Assembly: GCA_028753945.1 (NCBI GenBank)
Contig: JAPNXP010000001.1
Location: forward strand, 9,662,501 to 9,726,500
From: Hexactinellida sp. DTS-2022
Lineage: Eukaryota; Porifera; Hexactinellida
Reading direction: 5' to 3'
DNA length: 64,000 nt
In this document: positions 4,861-59,912 of the stretch, one piece after another
Numbering within the stretch: position 1 is the stretch's first letter
Layout of the letters: every line of letters starts with the position of its first letter
Notes under the pieces: model-generated
What the model was told of the DNA's origin: nothing
What the model saw: only the letters and a program-made list of their open reading frames with translations
The model's database searches: none
Translations under genes and position numbers: made by a program

Positions 4861-4909
4861 GCAGTGATTCTAATACTGGGCCACTATACTAGTATAGTCG
4901 GCACAGTAA
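4861..4909. repeat. Near-palindromic module, single copy
   Basis: GGCAGTGATTC, then ACTGGGCCACTATACTAGTA, then TAGTCGGCACAGTA. The core is two bases shorter than the usual 18-bp palindrome. It sits exactly between an inverted body start and an inverted hairpin. Confidence 0.85.
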
Positions 4910-5039
4910 AAAAAATCCAAAATTGCAGCCTGTGCCGACGCATGTTCCTTTGGTGGCACTATATTTTGGTGGTGGTTTATTGATAGTGCCTCCAAAGGAA
5001 CATGCTGTCGGCACTAGCTGCAATTTTGGATTTTTTTTC
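4909..5039. repeat. ~130-bp terminal hairpin, reverse orientation
   Basis: The arm lacking the bulge (CTGTGCCGACGCATG) now comes first and GACAGCATG-type sequence is on the right, so the copy is the reverse complement of 11323-11447. It is followed by CGCCTAGTCATCATCACTAT, the inverted body tail. Confidence 0.9.
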
Positions 5040-6100
5040 GCCTAGTCATCATCACTATGAAGGTGTTAAATTATTTCAGAAAGGTGTTTCAGTATGCAAC
5101 GACCCTTAGAGTGGTGGAAGTTTCCATTTAGCTCACTTCATTTGAGAGATATTCAAGTTTCAGTAGAATATAATCTGTGATGACTCAGCATTTTTAAAGT
5201 GCGTGTTGGGTATTCACCCAACTCCAACCAACCCATGCGAATTATTTAATTCACAAAATAGTAAAAATACATTTTTTTGACGATGTCATCATCACCTCAA
5301 GGTGTCAAGACCCACTTGTATAGGTGGTACCTGGCATAAGGACTAATTGATAAATTGAAAGTTTGTTTCTATCTTGTATCATCTCTGAGATTAATGAAAT
5401 TTACCTAATTAGTATAAATATTTAATTAATAAATTAATAATTTAACACCAATTTCAATGTCAACTTATATTTATTAAGTTTAATTATTTTGTCGTAAATA
5501 ATTAATTAATTAATTTGGCTATCAAATTTCAATTCCTCACACTCGATAACCCCTAATAAACAAATTGGGAGCATCTATATAAGTCATATACTGACTGAAT
5601 TAATTATAATTAATTACGTCAGTATATTAACAGTGCAATAATATTCTCGCAGAAGTAAATATAATCACATAATCTGTCGTTGTTATGGAATGTAGAATCT
5701 TAGTTTTCAATTATATAATAGAAGCCTACTCGATCTCACAAGTTGAATCAATATAATAATAACGAGTTGAAACAATAGAATTAGATTTAACACTTTCAAT
5801 TGAACTGAAGTGTTAGTAAACAAAGGAAACTTGCAATTCAATTGTGGCACAAACTAAGTACAATTTGAAAATTCGTGCACTGTGAAAAGGTGTAGAATTT
5901 AATTCTCTATCGAATGCATATAAATGTAATTTTCGGGTACCATTTATTGTTCCTGTTTCAATATTAAACAGGTGCAAAAATGTGTCCAAAAAAATGTGAT
6001 AAAAAATCGTGACTCCAGGTGCACATCTGTAACCCATCAGACACCTGTCCTGAAATTTAAGTTCTTAGTTAATTAAACTCTGTTCTGTGGAGTGGCTACG
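5040..6100 (-). repeat. Inverted body copy, variant B start
   Basis: Reverse body whose outer end is not CTCCGTAGACGG but CTCTGTTCTGTGGAGTGGCTACGG (read in two overlapping parts), a second start variant also seen near 21690, 22760, 23940 and 26400. Two subfamilies therefore share tails and hairpins but differ at the outer start. Confidence 0.8.
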
Positions 6101-6105
6101 GAAGA

Positions 6106-6977
6106 ATAATAACCAAGGCAGTAAGACCAATACTGGGCCACTATACTATAGTATAGTCGGCACAGTAAAAATAATATACCAAAGCACTAAGACCAATACT
6201 GGGCCACTATACTATAGTATAGTCGGCACAGTAATAATAAAGGCAGAGATTCCAATACTGGGCCACTATACTATAGTATAGTCGGCACAGTAATAATAAA
6301 GGCAGAGATTCCAATACTGGGCCACTATACTATAGTATAGTCGGCACAGTAATAATAACTAACCAAGGCACTAAGACCAATACTGGGCCACTATACTATA
6401 GTATAGTCGGCACAGTAACAAAGGCAGTGATTCCAATACTGGGCCACTATACTATAGTATAGTCGGCACAGTAATAATAAAAATAAAAATAATTAAGGCA
6501 GTGATTCCAATACTGGGCCACTATACTATAGTATAGTCGGCACAGTAATAACCAAGGCACTAAGACCAATACTGGGCCACTATACTATAGTATAGTCGGC
6601 ACAGTAATAATAACCAAGGCACTAAGACCAATACTGGGCCACTATACTATAGTATAGTCGGCACAGTAATAATATACCAAAGCAAAGATTAGAACTGGGC
6701 CACTATACTATAGTATAGTCGGCACAGTAATAATAACCAAGGCAGTAAGATTAGAACTGGGCCACTATACTATAGTATAGTCGGCACAGTAATAATAACC
6801 AAGGCACTAAGACCAATACTGGGCCACTATACTATAGTATAGTCGGCACAGTAATAATATACCAAAGCAAAGATTAGAACTGGGCCACTATACTATAGTA
6901 TAGTCGGCACAGTAATAATAACCAAGGCAGTAAGATTAGAACTGGGCCACTATACTATAGTATAGTCGGCACAGTAA
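6106..6977. repeat. Array of 14 near-palindromic modules
   Basis: Fourteen copies of a ~34-bp repeat running from CTGGGCC through ACTATACTATAGTATAGT to CGGCACAGTA. Joining segments of ~20-40 bp come from a small set: ACTAAGACCAATA, AGTGATTCCAATA or AGAGATTCCAATA, AAAGATTAGAA and AGTAAGATTAGAA, each after TAATAATAA- or TAATATACC-type linkers. The core is a perfect 18-bp palindrome; the whole repeat is palindromic apart from one bulge and one mismatch. Confidence 0.92.
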
Positions 6978-6978
6978 T

Positions 6979-7882
6979 AAGAGATATAACCGTTTAATTA
7001 TACTTAACCAAAAATATAAATGAATGTTGTATTACTTGTATTTAATAACTACGATAAAATAATAGTGTGTTATCAGTCTGTTCCTATGTTGAAATGATGT
7101 GCTACACCTCTTAAAAATTCTAATCTGGACGGTGTAGGTAACTCCCAACTAGGTCCCTTAGAGCTTTTTCATTAGCTTGGACTTTCTTCCTCTTGGATGG
7201 CTTATTCCTAGCAATATATTTGGCCTTCCTTAATTCTACTAGACACTGTTCGCGCTTTAGTGCAGATAGAAATTTCCATACGTTAGGATGATGACACCCG
7301 ACTGTAGCATTGAAACTACGATGCCATGCTTCAACTGCATTCGTTGTACGTGGTAATCCGAAAGCTGTGTCAAAATGGTAGTTCCACATGCTGATGGGGA
7401 ACAGCGCCTGTTGGTATGCTGCCGTATGCACCACCTGGGAGTGTACGCCCGATATATGTCCTCTCAAAATACTGTATTATATTGTCTGCTTCTGGCGTAG
7501 GAAGATGCGCAGCCACTTCATTAAATAGGTTAGGTACCTCGAAGGGAGCAGCAAACGCAAGAGCTGGAATCATACGGATACGGATAGCAATCTGCACTAA
7601 AGCGCGAACAGTGTCTAGTAGAATTAAGGCAGGCCAAATATATTGCTAGGAATAAGCCATCCAAGAGGAAGAAAGTCCAAGCTAATGAAAAAGCTCTAAG
7701 GGGCCTAGTTGGGAGTTACCTACACCGTCCCAGATTAGAATTTTTAAGAGGTGTCGCACATCATTTCAACATAGGAACAGACTGATAACACACTATTATT
7801 TTATCGTAGTTATTATATACAAGTAATACAACATTCAATTATATTTTTGGTTAAGTATAATTAAACGGTTATATCTCTTATT
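6979..7882. mobile_element. Foldback element carrying a MULE transposase remnant
   Basis: The left arm (about 6979-7255) and right arm (about 7617-7882) are near-exact reverse complements, from AAGAGATATAACCG inward. Both arms contain the same transposase C-terminus (AKYIARNKPSKRKK). The left arm joins the module array with no intervening sequence. Confidence 0.8.
7120..7597 (-). pseudogene. MULE transposase C-terminal fragment, frameshifted
   Basis: Two overlapping minus-strand frames together read like the C-terminal half of a MULE transposase. The upstream frame (to about 7400) has FEVPNLFNEVAAHLP and IIQYFERTYIG; the downstream frame has MWNYHFDTAFGLPRTTNAVE, then AWHRSFN, HPNVWKFLSALKREQ and a basic tail. 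The R-T-x-N-A-V-E-x-W-H motif with its catalytic-type Glu is characteristic of MULEs. A frame change near 7400-7430 and the lack of the N-terminal DD part make it non-functional. The 3' part is duplicated in inverted form at 7617-7740. Confidence 0.8.
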
Positions 7883-9155
7883 TTCTTTTACTATTATTGT
7901 ATGGTTTTCTTAAGAAAAATGGAAGAATAAACCTGTGGTTATGATCTAAAAAAATGAAATAGAATTGACCAATCAGATTAGTTGCGAATTGTCGTGTTGC
8001 GATTTGTCGGTGTTGCGAATTGTCTGTTGCGAGTTGTCGTGATGCGAACTGTCGTGCTTCCGTATTTATTAGAATCTGAATTTTATAATTACAAGCAATA
8101 TATTTAGAAGTCTTCACTTAAATAATTTATGATAATAACCCCAGAAACAAATTTGTCTATTTTCAAATACCATAATTCTGTATATTATCGTGTATTTCCA
8201 ATTTTCCATTCTGACACATCATTTAGGAAATTTTACAACACATCATTTAGGAAATTTTTATTTATTTAAATATTTTATAATAATAAAAAAATGCTCACTG
8301 CTACCTTATATTTCAATATGAGAGGGTAGATACTAATTGATAGGTAGAGAAATGTTTTTATAATGCATTTTATTCAGGTATTCTTGCTAATTTAACTAAA
8401 ATACTGACCTCCCGCTTTTTCTCCCGCTTTTAGAGTATCAACCTCCCGCTTTTAGATGAAACTCCCGCCACAGGTCCCACTTTTGGGATATTTTAGGTTG
8501 GCAGCACTGCAGGCTTCCCTAAAGGTGACAAAACTTTAGCCTATTAAATTCGAGGGTTTTCCAGTATGGATTAGCAGCTAGCATTCAATTCATATAAAAG
8601 GATTTTAGTGTCTCTATCAATTGTTAAGTGTGCGTTATAGAATGCCAAACAGAGACTGTAATTTAATTGGTCGAGAGGAAGTTCATTCATCCAATCAGTT
8701 ATTGTGTTCCCTCTGTCTAGTATCTACCCATACATTTCTAAGTTGTACAGTTCCTTAGTGATATTTAATTAAATTTCTATTTGGAGTTGGTATATTATTA
8801 TACACGGACATGCGTTAATATCTAGAAAATTGTCTGTTCTTATTAGCATAAATATTCAACAATCAGGCGCTGATTAGTATTTCCCAATTTATTTTTTATG
8901 TACTTATACGTATATACCTATGGCTAGGGCCCATGGATAAATAGACAGCTTAGGGGGGCACAGCCCTACTCTGAAACAATAGCATTACTGTTTTGTGGGT
9001 CACTAGCGGTCACCTAAATATTACCCATATGATTCTCCGTAATATAATCGACCTGTGTATAGGGCCTTTGACATTTTTTTATAGGCGACTAAATTCAGTT
9101 TGAGCTCAATCATGCACATACATTACTTAATTTGCATTAAGTCTATTGGAGTATG
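7883..9155. other. No gene seen; low-complexity intergenic stretch
   Basis: AT-rich. Contains a degenerate 13-16 bp tandem of TTGCGAATTGTCG-type units (7978-8064) and a short series of CTCCCGCTTTTAGA units (8408-8470). No conserved protein, tRNA or rRNA recognised. Confidence 0.5.
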
Positions 9156-9159
9156 TATA

Positions 9160-9320
9160 TAAATACAACCGGCATTGATTTTGAAAAGGCATGTGTTAGA
9201 ATACAAGCGAGGGCCGCAGGCCCGAGTACAAGTTGTAAGAACGCGCGTAGCGCGGACGAGAAGCTTGTATATATAAAGTAGTAGGTTTGTGTGTCTGTCT
9301 GTCTGTCCTCACATCTCCTC
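9160..9320. mobile_element. Helitron-like termini, back to back
   Basis: GGGCCGCAGGCCC and CGCGCGTAGCGCG are GC hairpins. Read on the minus strand each is followed by CTTG then T. They are followed on the plus strand by ATATATAAAGTAGTAGG and a GTCTGTCTGTCTGTCC tract typical of animal Helitron 5' ends. The CGCGCGTAGCGCG hairpin recurs at about 60567. No Rep/helicase gene is present. Confidence 0.55.
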
Positions 9321-9579
9321 CGAGAGTTCACAACAGATCTTAACCAAAATCTGTATGCCATCTAGGAGTTACCCCACAACCCTGAATAAGGAATTTTTAA
9401 GAGATATTTACATTCCTCGCGAAGTTAAACTCAAAATATGTGATTTTTTTGGCACCTTCCCATACATTTCAATGGGAATTATCAAAAGTTCACAGTGCTG
9501 CTAGAAAAACATTTCAAACGTGCAATCTAGGTTTTAGTGTATGAGGAATCCAAATATGATATTTTTAAAGTCAATAGAA

Positions 9580-9815
9580 TGCATAATTTGCAATTTACCA
9601 CATGCATATTTTTCACACTTAGCGAGGGTACCGACCTTGACCTATTAGATTCAGAATTTTCACATTATTCTGACTCGAGTTTAATTGGTCATAATTCAAT
9701 GGGTCAATTGTGTATGAAAGAAAACAACAATTGAATGTCCCTTGCTATATGCATAATTTGCAATTTACCATATGCATTTTTTTCGCACTTTGCGAGGGTA
9801 CCGACCTTGACCTAT
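9580..9815 (+). repeat. Direct repeat pair, ~65 bp
   Basis: GCATAATTTGCAATTTACCA, then TTTTTC[AG]CACTT and GCGAGGGTACCGACCTTGAC, occurs at about 9581-9644 and 9750-9813. Function unknown; probably part of the Helitron-like element to its left. Confidence 0.6.
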
Positions 9816-9882
9816 GAGCTTGCATTGAGTTGTCAATAGTCTCATTCCTATGGTCCCCGTAATATTAATACAACTGTTTATT

Positions 9883-9985
9883 ACTGTGCCGACTATACTA
9901 TAGTATAGTGGCCCAGTATTAGAATCACTGCCTTTATTATTACTGTGCCGACTATACTATAGTATAGTGGCCCAGTATTGGAATC
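9883..9985. repeat. Two near-palindromic modules, reverse orientation
   Basis: Two copies of TACTGTGCCGACTATACTAT-type modules, each followed by the AGTATT[AG]GAATCACTGCC spacer and a TTATTATT tract, immediately before a CTCCGTAGACGGTGCCCTGG body start. Confidence 0.9.
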
Positions 9986-10027
9986 ACTGCCTTTATTATT
10001 ATTATTATTATTATTTATATTATTATT

Positions 10028-11322
10028 TTTTCTCCGTAGACGGTGCCCTGGCCAGAGCTTTATGGTTGATGGGCTGAAACTTGGCATGTAGGTTCGGAGT
10101 CGACGTCTAATTTGCACCTGGGGTTACGATTTTTTATTAACAAATTTTTGACACATCTTTAACACCTTTCAAATTTTGTCTGGTCCATAACTCAAAAGTT
10201 GTTTTACTAAACCCCCAAATTTTATTTCACATTTGGACTCGCCATAGAATTCTGCGTCTGATGGGACAAGAAAGTTTCGCATAAAGGGGTCAATTTCTGC
10301 CATAAATGGGCGTTGAAATTTCTTTGTTTACTCACACTTCAATTTCAGTAAAACTGTGAAATCTAATTCCATTGTTTCAACTTGTAATAATTATATTGAT
10401 TTAACTTGTTAAATCCTACTCTATTGATTCAACTTGCGATAATTATATTGATTCAACTTATAAATTCCAGCTGGCTTCTATTTAATTGTAGCATTACTAT
10501 ACAATGGATTAAATTAAATTAATTTATATAAGGAATTTGTTGACTTTACTCAACTAACCGTGGATAACATTGCTAAAATAAATAACTAATAATTTAATTT
10601 ATTATCATTAAGTAATGAATGAATGGCATTAAACTAAAGATGGTTTATGATAGAACCGTTAAGATTTTACATTCCACAACAACGACAGATTAAGTGATTA
10701 TATTTATTTCGGCGAGAATATTCTTTTTGCACAATTAATGTACTGACGTAATTTATTATAATTAATTCCTTTTGTATTTAACTTATAGAATTTTCCAATT
10801 GGATTATTGGGGTTATCGAGTGCGCTGAATTCAAATATGATAGTGAAATTCGATTTAAATTAATAATAAGTGCAAATAATTGAACTGTATTTATTTTGCT
10901 GTACATAATAATGGTGTTAAATTATTAATTTATTAATTAAATATTTATACTAATTAGGTAAATTTCATTAATCTCAGAGATGATACAAGATAGAAACAAA
11001 CTTTCAATTTATCAATTGGTCCTTATGCCAGGTACCACCTATACAAGTGGGTCTTGACACCTTGAGGTGATGATGACATCGTTAAAAAAATGTATTTTTA
11101 CAATTTTGTGAATTAAATAATTCGCATGGGTTGGTTGGAGTTGGGTGAATACCCAACACGCACTTAAAAAATGCTGAGTCATCACAGATTATATTCTACT
11201 GAAACTTGAATATCTCTCAAATGAATTGAGCTAAATGGAAACTTCCACCACTCTAAGGGTCGTTGCATACTGAAACACCTTTCTGAAATAATTTAACACC
11301 TTCATAGTGATGATGACTAGGC
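10028..11322 (+). repeat. Hairpin-bounded repeat, body copy
   Basis: CTCCGTAGACGGTGCCCTGG start and GATGATGACTAGGCG tail, with all internal landmarks in order. It is close in sequence to 1071-2604 but lacks its MITE, and so serves as the empty-site copy. Confidence 0.85.
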
Positions 11323-11447
11323 GAAAAAAAATCCAAAATTGCAGCTAGTGCTGACAGCATGTTCCTTTGGAGGCACTATCAATAAACCACCACCAAAATA
11401 TAGTGCCACCAAAGGAACATGCGTCGGCACAGCTGCAATTTTGGATT
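11323..11447. repeat. ~130-bp terminal hairpin
   Basis: Arms AAATCCAAAATTGCAGC and GCTGCAATTTTGGATTTT, with GTCGGCACAG on the right. It is followed with no gap by a near-palindromic module. Confidence 0.9.
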
Positions 11448-11500
11448 TTATTACTGTGCCGACTATACTATAGTATAGTGGCCCAGTATTAGAATCACTG
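11448..11500. repeat. Near-palindromic module fused to hairpin
   Basis: TTACTGTGCCGAC, the 18-bp core, then GTGGCCCAGTATTAGAATCACTGCC. It directly abuts hairpin 11323-11447 on the left and the body start on the right. Confidence 0.9.
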
Positions 11501-18107: not shown

Positions 18108-19205
18108 GTTATAATAGGTAAACAAGTATGCTGAACACGAATTTCGCGTTTATAAATTTCTCATATGAATATTTGTTGTTGTTGTTTACACAAAATAGGT
18201 AAACAAATCAATGAAAATTCAAAATCAACCTAGAAGTTAGCTTTCAACGGATATTATAGGTAAACAAGTATGCTGAACACGAATTTCGCGTTTATAAATT
18301 TCTCATATGAATATTTGTTGTTGTTGTTTACACAAAATAGGTAAACAAATCAATGAAAATTCAAAATCAACCTAGAAGTTAGCTTTCAACGAGTATTATA
18401 GGTAAACAAGTATGCTGAACACGAATTTCGCGTTTATAAATTTCTCATATGAATATTTGTTGTTGTTGTTTACACAAAATAGGTAAACAAATCAATGAAA
18501 ATTCAAAATCAACCTAGAAGTTAGCTTTCAACGGGTATTATAGGTAAACAAGTATGCTGAACACGAATTTCGCGTTTAAAATTTTCTCATATGAATATTT
18601 GTTGTTGTTGTTTACACAAAATAGGTAAACAAATCAATGAAAATTCAAAATCAACCTAGAAGTTAGCTTTCAACGAGTATTATAGGTAAACAAGTATGCT
18701 GAACACGAATTTCGCGTTTAAAAATTTCTCATATGAATATTTGTTGTTGTTGTTACACAAATAGGTAAACAAATTAATGAAAATTTAAAATCAACCTAGA
18801 AGTTAGCTTCAACGAGTATTATAGGTAAACAAGTATGCTGAACACGATTTTCGCGTTAAAAATTTCTCATATGAATTTTGTTGTTGTTGTTACACAAATA
18901 GGTAAACAAATTAATGAAAATTCAAAATCAACCTAGAAGTTAGCTTTCAACGAGTATTATAGGTAAACAAGTATGCTGAACACGAATTTCGCGTTTAAAA
19001 ATTTCTCATATGAATATTTGTTGTTGTTGTTACACAAATAGGTAAACAAATTAATGAAAATTTAAAATCAACCTAGAAGTTAGCTTCAACGAGTATTATA
19101 GGTAAACAAGATGATGAACACGATTTTCGCATTTATAAAATTCTAATATGAGTATTTGTTGTTGTTGTTGTTTACACAAATAGGTAAACAAATTAATAAA
19201 AAATT
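18108..19205 (+). repeat. Minisatellite, ~8 units of ~140 bp
   Basis: Unit: TATAGGTAAACAAGTATGCT, GAACACGAATTTCGCGTTT, ATATGAATATTTGTTGTTG, ACAAAATAGGTAAACAAAT, CAACCTAGAAGTTAGCTTTC. The motif TAGGTAAACAA occurs twice per unit. The first four units are nearly identical and the later ones shorter and more diverged. Confidence 0.92.
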
Positions 19206-19660
19206 CAAAATCATAACGTCCCTTTCTACCATTTCCATGGTAGAAAGTGTGAGGAGTAAGGCCGCACAGCGGCCGTTAACTTGAGGTGCGTAGCACCGAT
19301 CTGTCGCAAAGCGACCGAGACCGAAGGGCTCGTATATACATAAAAGCGAATTTATTTACTAAAGCAGATTCGTATCAATAGTATAACCTATATTAATTAA
19401 GGATGACCTAATGAAACCATATTCGAATATCCCATGGGGATCCCCACACGGAAAAATTTGATTATTCGTGTTCTGACTCTAATAATTCTTGAAAATAATA
19501 AATGTCTTATTCTGAGCGTTCCGCTAAAAAACCTAAGATTTCCCAGCCGCTATTTTATAAAATTTTCCAGCACAAACATCGCAGGGGGGGTCAATCGACA
19601 GATACTTGACCCATAGCCAGGTGGTGGGTCCCATTTAAAAAAATATTTCATGAAGTACCT

Positions 19661-22254: not shown

Positions 22255-22720
22255 GAATTACTGTGCCTACTATACTATAGTATAGTGGCCCAGTATTGGT
22301 CTTAGTGCTGTTGTATGACAGTTTACTTACCATGACAGTTTACTTACCTCTATTACTATTACAATAGTTAACCATGGATACTTTCTATCCATGACGGTTT
22401 ACTTACCGTCTTTGCAATGGCTTCACACTTTATAGCCATAATGACATTTTTTTTTTGCCATAATGACATTTTCCAATTAGAATTTGAGATGTGAATCCTT
22501 ACAAGTGCAGAAGTGTAATAGGAAGTATAAAGTGTGAAGCCATTGCAATAACGGTAAGTAAACCGTCATGGATAGAAAGTATCCATGGTTAATTATTGTA
22601 ATAGTAATAGAGGTAAGTAAACTGTCATGGTAAGTAAACTGTCATACAACAGTGCTTTGGTATATTATTATATACTGTGCCGACTATACTATAGTATAGT
22701 GGCCCAGTTCTAATCTTACT
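22255..22720. repeat. Two near-palindromic modules, one split by a foldback element
   Basis: Module CTGTGCCTACTATACTATAG at 22260 with its spacer ATTGGTCTTAGTGC is interrupted at 22309 and its spacer resumes (GTGCTTTGG) at 22652. A second module follows at 22677. The modules predate the foldback insertion. Confidence 0.88.
22309..22651. mobile_element. 343-bp foldback with GTGC duplication
   Basis: Ends TGTTGTATGACAGTTTACTT and AAGTAAACTGTCATACAACA. GTGC is duplicated at 22305-22308 and 22652-22655. The arms (~130 bp) contain CATGACGGTTTACTTACCGT. Same family as 31207-31959, which has a GTAC duplication at homologous borders. Confidence 0.82.
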
Positions 22721-22759
22721 GCCTTGGTTAGTTATTATTATTATTATTATTATTTTTTT

Positions 22760-23785
22760 TGGTCCGTAGATCGTCCACAGAACAGAGTTTTATAAACTAA
22801 GGACTGAAATTTTTTGGACAGGTGTTCTATGGGTTACAGTGTGCACTTGGGGTCACAATTTTTTATTACATTCCTCTGGACACATTTTCACACCTGTTTA
22901 ATGTTACAACAGGTACAATAAATAGAGCCCGATAATTAAAATTATATGCATTCGATGGAGAATTAAATTCTACACCTTGTCACAGTACACTAATTTTCAA
23001 ATTGTGCTTAGTTTGTGCCACAATTGAGTTGCAAGTTTCATTTGTTTACTAACACTTCAGTTCAATTGAAAGTGTTGAATCAAATTCTATTGTTTCAACT
23101 TGTGATAATTATATTGGTTCAACTTGTGAGATCGAGTAGGCTTCTATTTTCCAAATGAAAACTAAGATTTTACATTCCATAACTACGACAGAATATGTGA
23201 TTAAATTTACTTCTCCGAGAATATTCTTGCACAATGGATACATGACATATTTATTTCTAATTAATTCTCTCTGTGTTTAACTTATAGAGACGCTTCCAAT
23301 TATATTATTGGGATTATCGAGTGCGCTGAATTCAAATATGATAGTGAAATTCGATTTAAATTAATAATAAGTGCAAATAATTGAATATATATTTATTAAT
23401 TAAATATTTATACTAATTAGCAAAATTTCATTAATCTTAGAGATGATACAAGATAGAAACAAACTTTCAATTTATCAATTGGTCCTTAAGCCACGTACCA
23501 CCTATACAAGTGGGTCTTGACACCTTGAGGTGATGATGACATCGTTAAAAAAATGTGTTCTTACAATTTTGTTAACTCGATATATAAAATGGGTTAGTTG
23601 ATGTTGAGTGATGACCCAACACTCACATAAAAAATGCTGAGTCATCAGCTATTATATTCTACTCAAACTTGAATATCTCTAAAATGAAGTGAGCTAAATG
23701 GAAACTTTCACCACTCTAGGGGTCGATGCCTTCTGTAACACCTTTTTGAAATAATTTAACACCTTCATAGTGATGATGACTTCGC
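22760..23785 (+). repeat. Body copy, variant B start
   Basis: Starts GGTCCGTAGATCGTCCACAG and runs to TGATGATGACTTCGCG before the hairpin. Non-coding. Confidence 0.8.
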
Positions 23786-23915
23786 GAAAAAAAATCCAAA
23801 ATTGGAGCCTGTGCCGCCAGCATGTTCCTTTGGAGGCACTATCAATAAACCACCAACAAAATATAGTGCCACCAAAGGAACATGCGTCGGCACAGGCTGC
23901 AATTTTGGATTTTTT
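23786..23915. repeat. ~130-bp terminal hairpin
   Basis: Standard arms and loop; followed by a (TTA)n tract and the variant B start at about 23937. Confidence 0.9.
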
Positions 23916-23936
23916 TATTATTATTATTATTATTAT

Positions 23937-25008
23937 TTATCCGTAGCCACTCCACAGAACAGAGTTTTATCAACTAAGAGCCCAAATTTTAGGATGGGTG
24001 TCTCATGGGTTACAGATGTGCACTTGGGGTTACGATTTTTGATTAACAAATTTTGGACACATGTTTAACACCTTTCAAAATTTGTCTGGACCATAACTCA
24101 AGAACTGTTATATGAAAGCCAAAAATTTTTAACCAATGGATTCACGATAAAATTCTGCGTCTGATGGGAAAAAATGCAGATTTTTAAAATTGGTAATTCA
24201 TGCCATAAATGGGGGTTGAAATTTCTTTGTTTACTGACACTTCAGTTCAACTGGAAGTGTTAAATCTAATTCTATTGTTTCAACTTGTGATTATTATATT
24301 GATTCAACTTGTGAGATCGAGTAGGCTTCTATTTTCCAAATGAAAACTAAGATTCTACTTCCATAACAACGACAGATTATGTGATTATATTTATTTCTGC
24401 TTAGAATCTTATTGCACAATGGATACATGACATATTTAATTCTAATTAATTCGCTCTGTGTTTAACGTATAGAGACGGTTCCAAATAGATTATTGGGGGT
24501 ATCGAGTGCGCTGAATTCAAATATGATAATGAAATTCAATTTAAATTAATAATAATTGCAAATAATTGAACTTAATTTAATTTGATGTACATAATATTGG
24601 TGTTAAATTATTAATAGATTAATTAAGTATACATACTAATTAATTAAATATCATAAATCTCAGAGATTATACGAGATAGAAACAAAATTCCAATTTATCA
24701 ATTGATCCTTATGCCACGCAACACCTCTACCAATGGATCTTGACACCTTGAGGTGTTGATGACATCGTAAAAAAAATGAGTTTTCACAATTTTGTGAATT
24801 ATATAATTCAAATGGGTCGGTTGGTTTTGGGTAGTCACCCAACATGCACATAAAAAATGCTAACTCATCACTTATTATATTCTACTAAAACTTGAATATC
24901 TTTGAAATGAAATGAGCTAAAACGAAATTTCCTACTCACTAATGTCGTAACCATTTGAAACACCTTTCTGAAATAATTTAACACCTTCATAGTGATGATG
25001 ACATGGCG
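23937..25008 (+). repeat. Body copy, variant B start
   Basis: TATCCGTAGCCACTCCACAG through TGATGATGACATGGCGG. Another mosaic of the two body subfamilies. Confidence 0.8.
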
Positions 25009-25136
25009 GAAAAAAATCCAAAATTGCAGCTGTACCGACAGCATGTTCCTATGGAGGCACTATCAATAAACCACTACCAAAATATAGTGCCACCAAAGGA
25101 ACATGCGTCGGCACTGCTGCAATTTTGGATTTTTTT
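25009..25136. repeat. ~130-bp terminal hairpin
   Basis: AAAAATCCAAAATTGCAGC through GCTGCAATTTTGGATTTT. It abuts an inverted, truncated body on its right. Confidence 0.9.
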
Positions 25137-25596: not shown

Positions 25597-25830
25597 TTAG
25601 AACTGGGCCACTATACTATAGTATAGTCGGCACAGTAATAACTAACCAAGGCACTGAGATTAGAACTGGGCCACTATACTGTAGTATAGTCGGCACAGTA
25701 ATAATAACTAACCAAGGCACTGAGATTAGAACTGGGCCACTATACTATAGTATAGTCGGCACAGTAATAATAATAAAGGCAGTGATTCCAATACTGGGCC
25801 ACTATACTATACTATAGTCGGCACAGTAAT
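25597..25830. repeat. Array of 4 near-palindromic modules
   Basis: Four modules with spacers of the AGATTAGAA and GTGATTCCAATA types. One core reads ACTATACTGTAGTATAGT and the last ACTATACTATACTATAGT, so both point change and slippage occur in the core. Confidence 0.92.
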
Positions 25831-41072: not shown

Positions 41073-42680
41073 AGAGCTGTTGTATCGTATTTTGAGGCGC
41101 TATTGTATATTGAGGCGCTGTATGATACACTAGTATAAACCATGGATATGCTATTACAAATTATACAGTGGTAATTGAGGCGCTCTGATAGATTGAGAAG
41201 CTACTATAAATGTGATTTCCTATCATTTTACGAGATAACGAGCCCTTCGGTCTCGGTCGCTTTGCGACAGATCGGTGCTACGCACCTCAAGTTAACGGCC
41301 GCTGAGCGGCCTTACTCCTCACATTTTCTACCATGGAAATGGTAGATAGCTATCTAATTTTCATTAATTTGTTTACCTATTTGTGTAAACAACAACAACA
41401 ACAAATACTCATATTAGAATTTTATAAATGCGAAATTCGTGTTCAGCACACTTGTTTACTTATAATACCTATTGAAAGTTAACTTCTAGGTTGATTTTGA
41501 ATTTTCATTAAATTGTTTAGCTATTTTGAGTAAACAACAACAACAACAACAACAACAAATATTCATATTAGAAAATTTAAACGCGAAATTCGTGTTCAGC
41601 ATACTTGTTTACCTATAATACCCGTTGAAAACTAACTTCTAGGTTGATTCTGAATTTTCATTAATTTGTTTACCTATTTTGTGTAAACAACAACAATAAA
41701 TATTCATATTAGAAAATTTTAACCGCGGAAATTTTGTTCAGCATACTTGTTTACCTATAGTACCCGTTGGAAGCTAACTTCTAGGTTGATTTTGAATTTT
41801 CATTAATTTGTTTACCTATTTTGTGTAAACAACAACAACAAATATTCATATTATAAATATATAAATGCGAAATTCGAAATCAGCATACTTGTTTACCTAT
41901 GAAACCCGTTGAAAGCTAACTTCTAGGTTGATTTTGAATTTTCACTAATTTGTTTACCTATTTTGTGTAAACAACAACAACAAATATTCATATTATAAAT
42001 ATATAAATGCGAAATTCGAAATCAGCATACTTGTTTACCTATAAAACCCGTTGAAAGCTAACTTCTAGGTTGATTTTGAATTTTCATTAATTTGTTTACC
42101 TATTTTGTGTAAACAACAACAACAAATATTAATATGAGTAATTTTTAAACGCGAAATTCGTGTTCAGCATACTTGTTTACCTATTATAACATTTGTTTAC
42201 CTATTATAACATTTGAAAGTTAGTTTATCTCTCATATATTAATGCGGTTTCTATTCCCCCCGCACTTTAATACAATCCGGACAAACAAACACACACACAC
42301 ACACACACACAAACATACACACAACAATCGAGATTTAATAATATAGATTTATCGTAGTTAGTCGCAAATTTAAGGAACTAATCAATTTTACATTAAATTA
42401 ACTGAATCTCGAAATGGAAAATTGTTTACTACGCGCCTCAAAATATTACAGTATAATTATAATAGCGCATCCATGGTTCACTTATACAGAGTCTAGAGTT
42501 CATGATATAATGCAAAATGATAGGAAATCACATTTATAGTCGCTTCTCAATCTATCAGAGCGCCTCAAAATACCACTGTATAATTTGTAATAGCATTATT
42601 AGCATATCCATGGTTTATACTAGTGTATCATACAGCGCCTCAATATACGATAGCGCCTCAAAATAGGATACAACAGAGCT
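41073..42680. mobile_element. Foldback element split by a Helitron-like insertion
   Basis: CTGTTGTATCGTATTTTGAG near the left end and CTCAAAATAGGATACAACAG at the right are inverted, with arms sharing GATTTCCTATCATTTT, GGTTTATACTAGTGTATCAT and repeated GAGGCGCT. The region 41239-42347 is a separate element. Confidence 0.72.
41239..42347 (-). mobile_element. Non-autonomous Helitron-like element, complete, minus strand
   Basis: Read on the minus strand: 5' TCTATATTATTAAATCTCG preceded by A, a GT tract, six to seven ~140-bp minisatellite units, the hairpins GTCGCTTTGCGAC, GGTGCTACGCACC and GGCCGCTGAGCGGCC (as written on plus), and a 3' end GACCGAAGGGCTCG followed by T. The ends match 17926-19332 exactly at both borders. 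Confidence 0.78.
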
Positions 42681-42906: not shown

Positions 42907-45651
42907 ATGAGTAAGGCCCACAAACGTCTCGCACAGATCCGCTGCTTAGTGAGGGCAGTGGAGTGCATGGAGAAGGGCGAGAGTCTCCCAGAGCCGCTCT
43001 GCTACGTGCCTTCTATCGTGCCCTACACACACAGCGGCAAGGGAGCCATAACGGTGTACGCAGAGCCTAAAGTCGCATCTCCCGCAGTGGGGAAGATTTC
43101 GGAAAAAGTCAAGCAAGTGAGCGCTACCAGCCACGTGGAGACGAACCCGGAGGGATTCTGGCTGAAGCTGGCTCCTTGCGAAAAAGATAAGTTCTTCCCG
43201 GGGAGCGAGAGCGGGTGGGTAATGCTGGACACTGTATCGGGGCACTCCCCCAAGGCCACGCTCAAGGCTCAGTCTAAGAGCGACGCGTCCGCTGTCTCGA
43301 AGGACTGGATGGAGAGCGTGATAACGGGGTTCTCTCTGGGCCCGGGGGATAAGGGCGGACTGCCTCCTCCCGACGCAGAGATGGGCAGTCAGCTGAGACA
43401 GCCTCACCCCAACTGGAGCATCGAGCTGGACTCGGACCTGGCGGAGTTCCTGTTCAAGAACGACACTCCGTTCGTAGCGAAGTCCCTCTCTGAGCCGGTC
43501 GGCTCGGACTACAGCAACGAGTGGTTCTCCTTCATCAGAGCCAGCCACAGCGACGACCTGCTGCCGGAGATCGCGGGCGTGAAGGAGTGGGACGACGGAA
43601 GCTGCTCCTGGGACGGCGCGCCGCGGGCCGGGGAGACCGAGGACGTGTACATCCGAGTCCAGCTGAGACAGGGCGTGGTGATGAAGCAGCTCTCCCTGCT
43701 GGTGGAACCAGATGACGACTGTCCGAAACACCTGCAGGTATGGTGTAGTACAGTGGTTCCCAACCTAGGGTACGGACGGCATTAATGGGCCCACAAAATC
43801 TCAATTCTTTTATTTAAAAATAAAATAAAAGAACGAGTTCAGGGGTGGGACGAATACCCATTGATCCTCCAGAACGTCCGAGAGGATCTAATTAGCTAAT
43901 CTTGATATGACAGGTCTATGTACTTTGTCGATAAATGCCTAATATCATACTCCCTATTGCTGTAGATATACGCCACTCTGACGGGAACAGAAATGCAGCT
44001 GGTCTCCGACCGCACATTCGACAAGACCGACATAGACCCCGCCTCCCACAAGCTGCATCTGCTAGACGCGCCCTTCAGCAGCTACGTGCAGGAGCTGGAG
44101 ATACGATTCCTGAGCAACATGGAGGGCAAGCGCCGCTTCTCGGTGTTCGGCTTCCATGTGGAGAAGGGCATCCCTCTCGACGACATAGACTCCGGGTCTC
44201 TGGACACGAACATATTCAATCAGGGTACACTCACGGACTTCCCACGCCTCCAGCCCTTCGAGAAGGCCTGTCTCTTCTACCGCTCTCTGCTGCTGAAGCG
44301 AGTGGTCTGGCTGCTGGACACAGTGCTCTATCTGATCATTCCCAAGTGCGGGAACGACTCCTTCATCCTGAACAAGATGCAGTCCGTGCGGTTCTTGTTC
44401 CCGCTGCTGGCGGACCGCAAGGAGCTGATCGACAAGTACCTGTCTCTGACGGAGAGCAAGAGGCCCTCCCGGCCGCACATCGCTGTCAACCGCCACCTGG
44501 CAGTGGAGCACCGGAGCAATCCCGCGAAGGACCGCAGCAACAAGAACACCGTGTTCTGTCAGCTGTTCGAGAAGCTGGCGCTCAAGACGAGCAGCAGCTT
44601 CGACTACCGCTGGCCGCTTTCTTTCGATCAGTGGTGGGAGTGCAACTTTGTGGGGGAGGGGGTCATAGACCAAGGGGGCGGGTTCCGAGACACCATAGCG
44701 GATATGGCAGAGGAGCTGACCCCCTCCAGCTCGAACTCCCCCATGCCTCTCTCCCTGTTCATCCGCTCCCCCAACCAGACCCAGGACACGGAGAGTCTGC
44801 ACAGAGACGCGTACACACTGAACCCCGGCTGTCGCGACTGGGACAAGTACGTGTGGCTGGGGAGGCTGATGGGCGCCATGTTCCGCGGGAAGGAGAAGCT
44901 CCCTCTGGCCGTCTCCCCGTTCATTTGGAAGCGACTGGTGGACCAGCCGGTCTGCTGGAAGGACTTCATCTCGATTCACTCCTCGGAGGTGACATTCATA
45001 GACATGCTGCAGGGCCTGGGGCGAGAGCAGTTCGCGGCTGCCTACGCGGAATCTCTCACCTTCGACACCGCGCTAAGCAACGGTGTCCCGGTGTGCTACA
45101 ACGCAGGGGAGGCCCCGGGGTCAGCCCCGGTGGGCTACGAGGGCGTGGCCGCCTTCTGCCGGTGGGTGAGGGAGGTGCGCCTCAATGAGTGCGACAAACA
45201 GATCCGAGAGATCCGGCGGGGACTCTCCAAGGTGATCACAGAGGTGGTGCTGTCGCTGCTGACCTGGCAGGAGCTGGAGGAGAAGGTCTGCGGGAACCCT
45301 GTCATAACCATGGACGACATGAGGAAGAACCTGCACTTCTGCGACATGAAGTCAGACGACGCTAACTACCTATGGGCAGCGTTGGAAACCTTCTCGAGCG
45401 AGGAGCGATCCAAGTTCCTGCGATTCGTAACAGGCAGACGCCGACTGCCCGCCTCGGTGACGGTGTACCCCGCCTCCGAGCCGGTGGACTCCCTCCCCAC
45501 CTCTGCGACCTGCGGTTCCGCTATATACCTGCCTGTGTACAGCTCCGCGGAAAAATGCCGCGAACGCATACTCTACGCCATCACAACTTGTGTGGCTATA
45601 GACGCAGACAGGTCTCCTTACGACTCGGACGATAGCTACAGTAGCGAGTAG
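42907..45651 (+). CDS. HECTD3: HECTD3-like HECT-type E3 ubiquitin ligase
   Basis: Two exons, 42907-43737 and 43966-45651, joined in phase 0 across a 228-bp GT-AG intron; 838 aa, against about 860 for human HECTD3. The N-terminal region is followed by an APC10/DOC-type segment at about 210-380 (EWFSFIRASHSDDLLPEI, VYIRVQLRQGVVMKQLSLL, spanning the intron) and the HECT domain from about 489 (WPLSFDQWWECNFVGEGVID, RLMGAMFRGKEKLPLAVSPF). Cys793 in SATCGSAIYLPVYSS, 45 residues from the end, is the expected catalytic thioester Cys. Role: HECT ligases pass ubiquitin from E2 through this Cys to substrate; the DOC domain is expected to bind substrates. It is far more GC-rich than everything around it, with G/C-ending codons, so antisense and +1 frames also stay open by chance. 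Confidence 0.93.
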
Positions 45652-46260: not shown

Positions 46261-46493
46261 TGACGTCATAACTTGGCGATAAGTGATAAATTTTGGGTGG
46301 AAACCTCTACTTTTGTGGGGGGCCAAATTTATCACTATATACCAAGAAACCCGTCCAGTTTGTTCAAACAACTCGGAACATACAAACAAACGAGCAGTTT
46401 ATTCTCGGTCGCTTCGCGACGGATCACTCACAAACAAAGACTACTTCGCGTTCTTTGTTCGTTCGTTCGTTTGATTCGATCAACATCTGATTT

Positions 46494-46625
46494 AAAAAGT
46501 CCAAAATTGCAGCTGTGCCGACGCATTTCCCTTTGGTGGCACTATCTTTTGGTGGATACCGGTTGGGTAACTGATAGTCCTCCAAGGAAATGGTGTCGGC
46601 ACAGCTGCAAATTTGGAAAAAAAAA
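46494..46625. repeat. ~130-bp terminal hairpin, covarying subfamily
   Basis: Arms read CAGCTGTGCCGACGCATTTC and GTCGGCACAGCTG. Compared with the usual GCATGTTCC/GGAACATGC, both arms have changed together (GCATTTCC/GGAAATGG), and CAGCCTG/CAGGCTG have both shortened to CAGCTG. Confidence 0.85.
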
Positions 46626-47770: not shown

Positions 47771-47965
47771 TGTCACCATCACGTCAGGGTGTTATGACAC
47801 ATTTGTCAAGTGGTCATGAGCTACAAGGAACGGTTGGTAAATTGGAAGTTTGTTTCTATCTTAAACCATCTTGAGTTTAATGCCATTAATTAATTATGTA
47901 TTAATAATATGAATTAAATTAATAGTGGATGAGCTACGGATAAATAGTAATAATAATAATAATAA

Positions 47966-48085
47966 TAAAATCTAAAATTACAGCTGTGCCGACAGCATTT
48001 CTTTTGGAGGCACTATCAATCAACCAACCACCAAAAGATAAGTGTCTTCTTAGGAACATGCTGTCGGCACAGCTGTAATTTTAGA
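47966..48085. repeat. ~120-bp hairpin, diverged
   Basis: AAATCTAAAATTACAGCTGT and ACAGCTGTAATTTTAGATTT are paired with matched changes relative to the consensus CCAAAATTGCAGC, another case of arms changing together. A lone half-arm of this subtype lies at 62875-62903. Confidence 0.82.
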
Positions 48086-48700
48086 TTTTGTTGTAAATAT
48101 ACATGCTTTTAACACCTCTTTAGAATATTCTACGAATCTCAAGTCTTTAATTACTTTTGAAGGTTCAAGATTTTAACCTTTCGTACTCGCATATTTGTGG
48201 CATAATCTTTGTGGTTCTACTGTGCTTTAATCACCCAATAGGACAATAGAGTTAATTCATAATTCTACTTTACTTAGCAACTATATAACAGCTGAGGAAT
48301 GTTAGAATTGGAACACAGAATATATTTTATCTTTATACTGACACTAATACAGATTGGATATACTCGTATATACGCTGGTGAGATATTATTGTGTGTCCAA
48401 TATGTAGGCATACAGAAGACCCGTTAATAGAAACACGGATAAGAGAAATACCGGTGCATGCTAGTTAGTGACTCGGGTTAATACGAACACATCATCCTTT
48501 CAAAATTGGTACGGCGAAAGGGACCAGCTACACTTTTCGGGGACTAATTATTGTTCCTCTATAGTCTATTCCTCCTAGTACAACGTTGGTGTTAGCTGAG
48601 CAAAACTAGCAGGTGGATCAGATCCGTTGAATGAGAAAAAAGCCGTGGTTGTTATAAACGTAGTACTGGGAGGAGCCACAATGTAGCAAACCATCTGTAG
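48086..48700. other. Intergenic, no gene supported
   Basis: AT-rich. Includes traces of a pogo-like MITE (ACCCGTTAATAGAAACACGG at 48419-48438). ORFs entering from the satellite at right are repeat translations. Confidence 0.45.
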
Positions 48701-48705
48701 CTCCT

Positions 48706-50072
48706 CTCTCAAAACCGGTTTGACTTGTTTCAAAACCTGTTTGTCTGATTTCAAAACCGGTTTGTCTGGAACATAAACCGGTTTTTCTGCGTTCAAAACC
48801 GGTTTACTTGTTTCAAAACCTGTTTGTCTGATTTCAAAACCGGGTTGACAATTTTCAAAACCGATTTGACTTGTTTCAAAACCGGTTTGTCTGATTTCAA
48901 TACCGGTATATCAAGATTTAAACTGGTTTGACAAGTTTCAAAACCGGTTTGATTTATTTCTAAACCTGTTTGTCTAAATTCAAAACCGGTTTGTCCAGAT
49001 ATAAACCGGTTTGCCTGGCTTCAAAACCGGTTTGTCTGATTTCAAAACCGGTTTATCGAGATTTAAACTGGTTTGACAAGTTTCAAAACCGGTTTGATTT
49101 ATTTCTAAACCTGTTTGACTGATTTCAAAACCGGTTTGTCCAGATATAAACCGGTTTACCTGCTTTCAAAACCGGTTTGCCTGGGATCAATACCGGTTTG
49201 TCTGGAACATAAACCGGTTTGTCTGATTTCAAAACCGGTTTGACTTGTTTCAAAACCGGTTTGTCTGATTTCAAAACCGGTTTGTCCAGATATAAACCGG
49301 TTTGACTGATTTCAAAACCGGTTTGACAATTTTCAAAACCGGTTTGACTTGTTTCAAAACCTGTTTGTCTGATTTCAAAACCGGTTTGTCCAGATATAAA
49401 CCGGTTTGACTGATTTCAAAACCGGTTTGACCATTTTCAAAACCGGTTTGACTTGTTTCAAAACCGGTTTGTCCAGATATAAACCGGTTTGTCTGATTAC
49501 AAAACCGGTTTATCAAGATTTAAACTGGTTTTACTTGTTTCAAAACCGGTTTGTCTGATTTCAAAACCGGTTTATCCAGATTTAAACTGGTTTACAAGTT
49601 TCAAAACCGGTTTGATTTATTTCTAAACCTGTTTGTCTGATTTCAAAACCGGTTTGTCCAGATATAAACCGGTTTGCCTGCTTTCAAAACCGGTTTGCCT
49701 GGGATCAATACCGGTTTGTCTGGAACATAAACCGGTTTGTCTGATTTCAAAACCGGTTTGACAATTTTCAAAACCGGTTTGACTTATTTCAAAACCGGTT
49801 TATCCAGATGTAAATTGGTTTGACAAGTTTCAAAACCTGTTCGACTTGTTTCAAAACCAGTTTGTCTTATTTCAAAACCGGTTTGTCCAGATATAAACCG
49901 GTTTGCCTGCTTTCAAAACCGGTTTGCCTGGGATCAATACCGGTTTGTCTGGAACATAAACCGGTTTGTCTGATTTCAGAACCGGTTTATCCAGATTTAC
50001 ACCGGTTTGACAAGTTTCATATACGGATTGTCCGGATCTAAACCGGTTTGTCTGATTTCAAACCGGTTCTAA
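48706..50072. repeat. AAACCGGTTT satellite, ~20-bp units
   Basis: About 60-70 units of the form TTTCAAAACCGGTTTGTCTG with variants (CCAGATATAAACCGGTTTG, GGGATCAATACCGG, GAACATAAACCGG). The palindromic core AAACCGGTTT is nearly invariant while the inter-core bases vary among a handful of types. There is higher-order structure of ~200-bp blocks. Translated repeats (KPVLKSDKQVLKQ on minus) have no gene context. Confidence 0.95.
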
Positions 50073-54826: not shown

Positions 54827-55032
54827 TATATTGATAGATGCTGTTTGGATGGGTAAAAGTTTGGGCTCTATGAAACCTGTTAAATATTAATTATCCATTG
54901 ATATATTCGAATTGGTTTACCTGTTTTCAAATATCACGTCTATTGATGAAGCCAGCTTTGGATATTCTTATTGCTATTAAATTCTATATATTTTCAAATT
55001 CTCAATTAATTTATTATTTCGCTTACAAATAC

Positions 55033-57465: not shown

Positions 57466-57803
57466 GTATTACTGTGCCGACTATACTATAGTATAGTGGC
57501 CCAGTATTGGTCTTAGTGCCTTGGATGTTTTTTTTTTTTTTTTTTTTCTCCGTGTCGCCTCCCCAGGCTAAACCATAAGTGCTAGAGCTCTGAGATTTTC
57601 AGAATAGGTGTCTGGTTGTTGATTAATGTGCACTTCGTGGCCTGATTTTTAATTTCGACTTGTGAAACTATCCTGAAAATCTCAGAGCTCTAGCACTTAT
57701 GGTTTAGCCTGGGGAGGCGACACGGAGAAAAAAAAAAACAAACAAACCAAAGCACTAAGACCAATACTGGGCCACTATACTATAGTATAGTCGGCACAGT
57801 AAT
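57466..57803. repeat. Composite palindrome: module - hairpin - inverted module
   Basis: The module at 57471 (TACTGTGCCGACTATACTAT, spacer ATTGGTCTTAGTGCC) and its mirror at 57748-57803 flank a T-run/A-run and an internal ~185-bp palindrome whose arms begin CTCCGTGTCGCCTCCCCAGG and contain GCTAGAGCTCTGAGATTTTC. Here the modules sit as outermost terminal inverted repeats. Confidence 0.9.
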
Positions 57804-57934
57804 TAAAAAAAATCCAAAATTGCAGCCTGTGCCGACAGCATGTTCCATTGGAGGCACTATCAATAAACCAACCAACAAAATATAGTGCCACCAAAGGAAC
57901 ATGCGTCGGCACAGGCTGCAATTTTGGATTTTTA
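57804..57934. repeat. ~130-bp terminal hairpin
   Basis: Standard hairpin with the GACAGCATG bulge arm on the left. It follows the module with only AATT between them. Confidence 0.9.
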
Positions 57935-58438: not shown

Positions 58439-59457
58439 TGCAAGACCAAGAAATTCAATTTCAAGAACAAGAAATCCAATTCAAGACCAAGAAATCCAAT
58501 TTCACGAACAAGAAATCCAATTTCACGAACAAGAAATCCAATTTCACGAACAAGAAATCCAATTTCTCGAACAAGAAATCCAATTTCACGAACAAGAAAT
58601 GCAATTTCTCGAACAAGAAATCCAATTTAACGAACAAGAAATCCAATTTCGTGAACAAGAAATCCAATTTCTCGAATAAGAAATCCAATTTCACGAACAA
58701 TAAATCCAATTTCACGAACAAGAAATCCAATTTCATGAACAAGAAAACCAATTTCTCGAACAAGAAATCCAATTTTCGAACAAGAAATCCAATTTCACGA
58801 ATAAGAAATCGAATTTCTCGAACAAGAAATCCAATTTCACGAACAAGAAATCCAATTTCTCGAACAAGAAATCCAATTTCACGAACAAGAAATCCAATTT
58901 CACGAACAAGAAATGCAATTTCTCGAACAAGAAATGCAATTTCACGAACAAGAAATCCAATTTCTCGAACAAGAAATCCAATTTCACGAACAAGAAATCC
59001 AATTTCACGAATAAGAAATCCAATTTCACGAACAAGAAATCCAATTTCTCGAACAAGAAATCCAATTTCACGAACAATAAATCCAATTTCGTGAACAAGA
59101 AATCCAATTTCACGAATAAGAAATCCAATTTCACGAATAAGAAATCCAATTTCACGAACAATAAATCCAATTTCGTGAACAAGAAATCCAATTTCACGAA
59201 TAAGAAATCCAATTTCACGAATAAGAAATCCAATTTCACGAACAAGAAATCCAATTTCTCGAACAAGAAATCCAATTTCACGAACAAGAAATGCAATTTC
59301 GTGAACAAGAAATCCAATTTCACGAACAAGAAATGCAATTTCGTGAACAAGAAATCCAATTTCACGAACAAGAAATCCAATTTCACGAATAAGAAATCCA
59401 ATTTCACGAACAAGAAATCCAATTTCACGAACAAGAAATCCAATTTCACGAATAATA
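58439..59457 (+). repeat. 21-bp satellite, ~48 units, open in several frames
   Basis: Unit: AACAAGAAATCCAATTTCAC and G, with limited variants (CTCG, GTG, AATAAG, GCAATT). The unit length is divisible by three and free of stops in several frames, so ORFs of 85-265 codons appear on both strands (NKKSNFT and KLDFLFV heptads). No start context, splice sites or conserved flanks support a gene. Confidence 0.95.
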
Positions 59458-59912
59458 AAGGCAGTGATTCCAATACTGGGCCACTATACTATAGTATAGT
59501 CGGCACAGTAATAATAATATACCAAAGCACTAAGACCAATACTGGGCCACTATACTATAGTATAGTCGGCACAGTAATAATAATATACCAAAGCACTAAG
59601 ACCAATACTGGGCCACTATACTATAGTATAGTCGGCACAGTAATAATAATATACCAAAGCACTAAGACCAATACTGGGCCACTATACTATAGTATAGTCG
59701 GCACAGTAATAATAATATACCAAAGCACTAAGACCAATACTGGGCCACTATACTATAGTATAGTCGGCACAGTAATAATAATATACCAAAGCACTAAGAC
59801 CAATACTGGGCCACTATACTATAGTATAGTCGGCACAGTATACAATAATAACCAAGGCAGTAAGATTAGAACTGGGCCACTATACTATAGTATAGTCGGC
59901 ATAGTAATAAGT
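59458..59912. repeat. Array of 7 near-palindromic modules, 63-bp period
   Basis: Seven modules. Five consecutive ones have an identical spacer (AATAATATACCAAAGCACTA, AGACCAATA), giving an exact 63-bp period that also reads open as GPLYYSIVGTV repeats. The array abuts the satellite on the left and truncates the small gene on the right. Confidence 0.92.

Follow-up and report, generated by a model that had tools for sequence, protein, structure and literature searches.

The near-palindromic module arrayed in a glass sponge genome is the 5' terminus of a Helentron family

Introduction

Helentrons and their HINE or DINE-1 relatives are characterized, in the portions of PMC4067079 used here, by a Rep-helicase-endonuclease protein, sub-terminal inverted repeats, a 3' palindrome, insertion into T-rich targets without target modification, and abundant non-coding derivatives; the left end of DINE-1 carries, according to the same portions, an inverted repeat and a microsatellite. 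FoHeli Helitrons of Fusarium oxysporum have several 5' termini and one 3' terminus, for which self-insertion was proposed (PMC5148889, legend of Fig. 7), and 17.6% of the helA elements among maize Helitrons have multiple 5' termini, with nested insertion as the explanation proposed in the excerpts of PMC3288121 considered. In the Pacific oyster, Cg_HINE elements, which are non-autonomous Helentrons, scatter satellite-like tandem arrays through the genome (PMC7492417, in excerpt).

Here we describe a 64,000-nucleotide stretch of the genome of Hexactinellida sp. DTS-2022 (the window) and related loci, in which all of the Helentron and HINE features listed above from PMC4067079 are found. The inverted repeat common to both ends is 10 bp long, compared with 12-15 bp in mite HINEs, the 3' palindrome measures 125 bp, compared with 5-10 bp in the Helentrons and HINEs covered by those portions, and the left end, unlike theirs, is stacked up to 40 times. 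In the available part of PMC5148889 the first 31-85 nt of FoHeli are repeated once or in small combinations, whereas here 2-40 termini occur and the order of their types fits nesting. The maize elements are canonical Helitrons with CTAG ends, and the excerpts of PMC3288121 describe no long arrays of termini; the Cg_HINE arrays in the excerpted text of PMC7492417 are central repeats between flanks, whereas the unit repeated here is the left flank itself. Multiple 5' termini are already known from Fusarium and maize Helitrons, and what is new here is their scale and readable order. The literature searches made, which drew on partial texts, returned no description of long arrays of Helentron 5' termini.

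Results and Discussion

Copies of the module in the window and in the genome

An earlier note on the window had described fourteen copies of a near-palindromic module, with further copies in arrays, in inverted pairs and singly. Pattern search recovered exactly fourteen exact copies, head to tail at 6132-6976, with a start-to-start spacing of 56-74 bp and an 18-bp perfect palindrome, ACTATACTATAGTATAGT, as the core. The other groups are also present (Table 1), namely the four-copy array, the seven copies at 59475-59906, the single copy, and an outward-facing pair at 57470(-)/57766(+). The copies at 22259 and 22673, on inspection, are the two units of a single array into which a foldback element has been inserted. 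A further group of two copies was found, as well as a copy with a 2-bp deletion in its core (~4876-4907, one gapped full-length match).

The 36-bp module pattern occurs 32 times in the window with at most three mismatches (28/32 exact; chance expectation 0) and at 3,401 + 3,398 = 6,799 places in the 112.4 Mb genome at the same threshold; a reversed-pattern control in the same genome-wide search returned 0 places. In the 118 kb that were read, 154/174 copies are exact, 20/174 have one to three mismatches and none has four to six, in a tally that leaves out copies with insertions or deletions; in contrast, matching stretches of the neighboring bodies are only ~70-97% identical between loci. Along contig C1, the first 100 exact matches form 49 groups of 1-6 copies. 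Larger arrays were located by searching with the array itself as the query, and the sample is therefore tilted toward long arrays. Overall, the loci studied are a non-random sample, drawn from the best arrays, from the places that come first on contig C1 and from regions adjoining Rep ORFs.

Table 1. Helentron termini, bodies and adjoining features in the window.
Feature	Position	Strand	Basis or remarks
Array of 14 Helentron 5' termini (LTSs)	6106..6975	-	14 exact modules; outermost LTS at 6975
Unit types of the 14-unit array	6106..6975	-	CC CC T1 T1 CC T1 T1 CC x7; adjoins X3 body end 6078-6105
Body of non-autonomous Helentron (HINE, X3), owner of the 14-unit array, ending in RTS	4908..6105	-	RTS at genome 9667415/9667498, X3 body end 9668578
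RTS (3' terminus), 125-bp palindrome with flanking A/T tracts	4908..5038	-	Self-inverted match
Single LTS with 2-bp core deletion, beside X1 body end (4824)	4876..4907	-	Gapped match
Right flank of the 14-unit array, MULE-type fragment	6976..7267	.	Inverted paralogue 7590-7882 without array
Two LTS units of X1 HINE, RTS ~11325-11449	9882..9976	+	Module on - strand
Single LTS of X1 HINE	11452..11487	+	Module search, body-end match
Two LTSs (22259-22294, 22673-22708) and two stacked X3 bodies	22259..25136	+	One insertion in older body, no target duplication
Four LTS units, module on + strand; first deletion-fused to X3-like body	25602..25828	-	Outermost T1 type
Two X2 elements in opposite orientation, one LTS at each outer end	57470..57801	.	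Module and body matches
Body-less array of seven LTS units beside 21-bp satellite	59470..59910	-	5/7 with same inner segment, 66-bp period

The module is the left end of a larger element

The module is the 5' (left) terminus, here called LTS, of a family of Helentrons, which are rolling-circle transposons, and is not free-living. Along the module strand, a 125-bp palindrome that starts with A7-TCCAAAATTGCAG is followed by a body of ~0.7-1.4 kb, a conserved body end, an A/AAT tract, one or more LTS units and an A/T-rich target. Body ends define three subfamilies (X1, X2 and X3), and the X3 body that owns the 14-unit array is 82-87% identical to other X3 bodies. An LTS unit spans ~53 bp plus an A/AAT tract, and the module is its outer part. 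It consists, in this order, of a T-tract, a terminal sub-TIR that forms an imperfect hairpin of 34 bp by folding back, a stretch specific to the subfamily and a TTA microsatellite. The predicted fold of the module, as DNA, is an imperfect hairpin at -8.0 kcal/mol (z -4.1), and the opposite (3') terminus, the RTS, is the 125-bp palindrome, for which the L025 family copy has a predicted fold at -51.8 kcal/mol (z -14.8). Such a palindrome at the 3' end fits Helentrons, with an unusually large size. A 10-mer, CTGTGCCGAC in the LTS and GTCGGCACAG in the arm of the RTS, is common to both termini in inverted orientation, as expected of Helentrons; it is shorter than the 11 bp by which families have been defined. 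By inspection, the canonical Helitron (Helitron1) ends 5'-TC and CTRR-3' are not present, and the ends in coding orientation read ACTGTG... and ...GGAT(T)n.

The complete non-coding copy L025 has no ORF longer than 70 aa. Rfam searches gave 18 matches in 5901-10100 of the window, mostly microRNA look-alikes, and three in L025, all below gathering scores; a tRNA search of four loci found none.

A coding partner with a Helentron protein plan

The genome contains at least 151 Helitron_like_N matches, among which one Rep class (~103-105 bits) includes, among the copies listed, 20 whose open frames measure 1,652-1,709 aa. In the one copy of this class whose domains were scanned (the L049 ORF), PF14214 (100.9 bits), PF05970 (87.3), PF03372 (30.7) and PF14529 (29.3) all score above cut-off, and Rep, PIF1-type helicase and endonuclease thus lie in a single ORF, as in Helentrons. 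An OTU-like match in the adjoining 3' piece of this copy, at C2:901.6 kb, scores 21.3 bits, below the cut-off of 23.3.

The C2 copy joins this protein to the module directly: a 40-unit array at 895612-898075 is followed, in reverse orientation, by the body end and, 3.5 kb on, by the Rep-helicase-endonuclease ORF. The copy at C1:5540 kb (L058/L059) has three reverse LTSs with the same body end and layout and palindromes downstream. In 14 more stretches, 2.9-4.6 kb upstream of ORFs of the class and representing 14/18 other listed copies with 1,652-1,709 aa, a reverse LTS is found in 5/14, a forward one in 0/14 and a reversed body end in 12/14; 9/14 contain no LTS. This layout, with reverse LTSs and body ends upstream of the ORFs, makes the module the 5' end of the element in coding orientation and the palindrome its 3' end. 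Protein plan and termini together fit Helentrons as set out in the portions of PMC4067079 used here.

A second Helitron-like class (class A, with loci L050, L060, L061 and others) has a higher PF14214 score and ORFs of up to 1,930 aa with Rep, PIF1 and OTU domains and no endonuclease match at E 0.01; two of its copies, when compared, agree at 98.2 and 99.9% next to the ORF. Neither module nor RTS motif was found in L050, L060 and L061, and the module is absent from 10/10 class A Rep loci of 3.5 kb, whose short flanks end before the element ends.

Insertion sites

Two copies of the target, L052 and L053, are empty where L025 has its element and read GAATG-A6-TGGG, and the filled site reads GAATG-A8-TCC...CACAGT-A5-TGGG. 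The target is therefore A6, with no other duplication; a duplication of A's alone is possible. L025 lies within an ORF which we take to be RT-like from its motifs, and a Pfam search of this ORF gave no match. The ORF is the target of the insertion rather than a coding partner of L025, since its L052 and L053 copies lack the element.

In the window, a nest of two stacked bodies and two LTSs (22.26/25.14 kb) lies in an older body, where it is flanked by ...AATTAATTAT and AATTCATTCAG; the paralogue near 5590 reads AATTAATTATAATTAATTCAG, and the comparison reveals no target duplication other than A's. The foldback element at 22303-22662 (GTTGTATGACAG...CTGTCATACAAC), with a 6-bp duplication AGCACT, is situated within the inner part of an LTS unit of this nest. 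For two arrays, of 14 and 15 units, one side alone was seen: the outer border of the former is in an A5 tract in 3/3 paralogues, and the outer border of the latter is in A5 in 2/3 and in A3 in the third. Two two-sided and two one-sided empty sites thus agree with the T-rich, duplication-free target of Helentrons. For the 14-unit element of the window, the left boundary in its target was not found, and only one side could be located when its right flank was compared with the array-less paralogue at 7590-7882 (AGAAAATAAGAG versus CACAGTAATAAGAG).

Origin of the arrays

We consider it very probable that the arrays of this Helentron terminus arose mainly through new copies entering the left ends of older copies. 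Autonomous copies encode Rep, PIF1 helicase, endonuclease and OTU-like domains, and many short non-coding copies have the same ends; Rep may recognize the LTS hairpin, with nicking presumably at the outermost LTS, and new copies would insert in the T/TTA tracts at the left end of an older copy. Insertion between the old LTS and its body would place, on one side, the old LTS beside the new one and, on the other, the old body, now without its LTS, behind the new RTS, so that LTSs would stack in mirror order to the bodies. Several LTSs could travel together on composite copies that start at the outermost LTS, and blocks of LTSs would be multiplied locally by slippage or unequal exchange.

Body ends lead to an LTS in 33 cases, to the RTS of another element without an LTS in 28, and to something else in four. 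Body ends that lack an LTS and abut an RTS follow if the new element enters the tract between the old body and its LTS. The segments joining successive modules, earlier described as about four exchangeable types, belong to two main classes and some hybrids. They make up the inner portion of the terminus, and next to a body they are not exchangeable, being subfamily-specific. The LTS next to the body is of type T1 in 21/23 cases on X1 compared with 0/10 on X2/X3 (p = 7e-7), so that this unit fits the subfamily in 31/33 arrays with a body (21/23 for X1, 10/10 for X2/X3). For outer LTSs the corresponding fractions are 53/108 on X1 and 11/28 on X2/X3 (p = 0.40).

The mirror order is supported by order statistics. 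A bracket parse of 172 kb yielded 37 immediate and 22 deep body-LTS pairs, and 18/21 typed deep pairs agree with mirror order while 3/21 disagree (null 10.4, p = 5e-4 by a permutation that assumes neighboring units to be independent, an assumption that holds only in part). The 172 kb include the exploratory data behind the model, along with two later prediction stretches, and the parse is therefore no independent test; each strand of the window was parsed as a single string, so that some pairs may join unrelated elements. Two predictions on LTS number were written before two new stretches were fetched. In one (B), at least two LTSs were expected and two were found; in the other (A), at least three were expected after the third body, and a fourth body came first, followed by six LTSs, so that the number held and the named body did not. 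In the latter chain, as was noted afterwards, bodies X1 X1 X3 X3 face LTSs CC CC T1 T1 T1 and a hybrid. Eight more chains were pre-registered; two of them were reached, both in agreement, and six lie beyond the shorter stretches. Chain L067 has bodies X1, X3 and LTSs CC, T1, then no further feature, and chain L064 has bodies X3, X3 and LTSs CC CC CC; in the chain at C1:676541-680146, the third unit is truncated and its type is the wrong one, a unit which the parse missed.

The parse left 141/200 LTSs without a partner body at their own locus, and 13/36 closed chains keep one or two unpaired bodies. Nesting at the locus therefore accounts for a minority of the extra units, and the others must come via composite elements, truncated copies or block duplication. 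Block duplication is directly visible inside arrays, where blocks of 224-514 bp recur at 99.0-100% identity; in the window array, block 6571-6794 recurs at 100% as 6756-6979, with a period of 185 bp. At C1:1405004-1405153, a short insertion next to an LTS comprises 35 bp of a body end and a further LTS, and points to truncated copies as another possible source of units. Among 28 multi-unit arrays no long multi-LTS haplotype is common to different loci (best 239 bp at 98%, ungapped), and a direct sign of whole-array transposition is therefore absent. At the level of sequence comparison, type association, mirror order and duplicated blocks support nested self-insertion combined with block duplication as the probable origin of the arrays.

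Alternative explanations

The arrays could instead have grown purely by local tandem duplication of an element's own LTS, with the AAT tracts as sites of slippage or unequal exchange, in the manner of a minisatellite. The nearly identical blocks within arrays, the excess of LTSs without a partner body and the 7-unit array at 59470, five of whose units have one inner segment, all speak for such duplication. As a sole cause it is nonetheless disfavored, and we regard it as improbable, since duplication of the own LTS alone would yield a single type per array, whereas outer units carry the type of the other subfamily about half the time, independently of the body, and the order of units tends to mirror that of stacked bodies. 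A retroposon origin, with the unit as the 3' tail of a SINE- or LINE-like element repeated through template jumping of reverse transcriptase, would suit the A/AAT tracts, which resemble retroposon tails, and a copy truncated to ~95 bp that still has its module end. It was dropped as highly implausible after the two two-sided empty sites revealed no duplication beyond A's, the other terminus proved to be a large palindrome with the common inverted 10-mer, and the coding copies turned out to encode Rep and helicase.

The earlier note had favored a module moving on its own, and a near-palindromic mini-transposon or MITE that makes TA duplications and invades Helentrons would explain why many units are bordered by TA on both sides. 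Among the 37 arrays examined, however, 33 adjoin a body end of the one larger element family (26/30 without the seven arrays picked beside Rep ORFs). By inspection, two of the remaining four are body-less, which is what an independent unit would predict, one is fused to a body through a deletion, and one represents the outer half of an array that has been split. The fit of the body-next unit to its subfamily and the position of the module as the outer border at empty sites also argue against independence, which we judge to have almost no chance of being correct; the free 34-bp mobile unit was accordingly abandoned in favor of a part of a larger element. What survives of the earlier reading is a mobile-element-like unit of varying copy number with mixed flanks; permanent embedding in a larger element, which the note itself had named as evidence against its view, nearly holds, because so few arrays lie away from a body end. 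The target duplication it had proposed to look for was not seen beyond A's at the two two-sided sites, and the fixed-length duplication that, together with terminal inverted repeats, defines MITEs is likewise lacking there. The arrays also differ from satellite DNA, which has no enclosing mobile element. The note was right to exclude a MITE or an ordinary satellite, but the family does have a name, Helentron or Helitron2.

In the papers considered, the attribution of multiple 5' termini in Helitrons to self-insertion was based on limited examples; here thousands of copies, in which both termini and bodies are typed, would make it possible to test that model by order alone. The arrays represent one route from a transposon terminus to a dispersed satellite-like array, and they are best annotated as Helentron ends. 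It is conceivable, if rather doubtful, that nested rolling-circle insertions are recorded in LTS stacks in the manner of brackets and can be read from them, that starts with multiple LTSs are favored because more start sites raise the transposition rate, and that the family is evolving toward satellite-like terminus arrays, with the 40-LTS autonomous copy as the extreme case.

Other sequence features of the window

MULE-type transposase remnants occupy 54874-57320, with a PHD/C1-like finger and a MULE domain, and the inverted repeat at 7081-7882, beside the 14-unit array, is presumably also MULE-like, judging from its translated motifs. A gene for a HECT-domain ubiquitin ligase at 42907-45651 lies in an island where GC reaches 0.57, compared with ~0.35 around it. 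The 21-bp satellite at 58447-59459 (48 copies) is open in several frames on both strands and abuts the body-less seven-LTS array, and another array of a 21-bp unit, at 48709-50068 (65 copies), contains the palindrome AAACCGGTTT. The consensus units of the 142-bp tandem arrays at 18110-19213 and 41545-42184 look like reverse complements of each other. Copies of the RTS palindrome are also present outside complete elements, standing alone or differently joined, at 57805-57933, 46493-46617 and 47957-48089.
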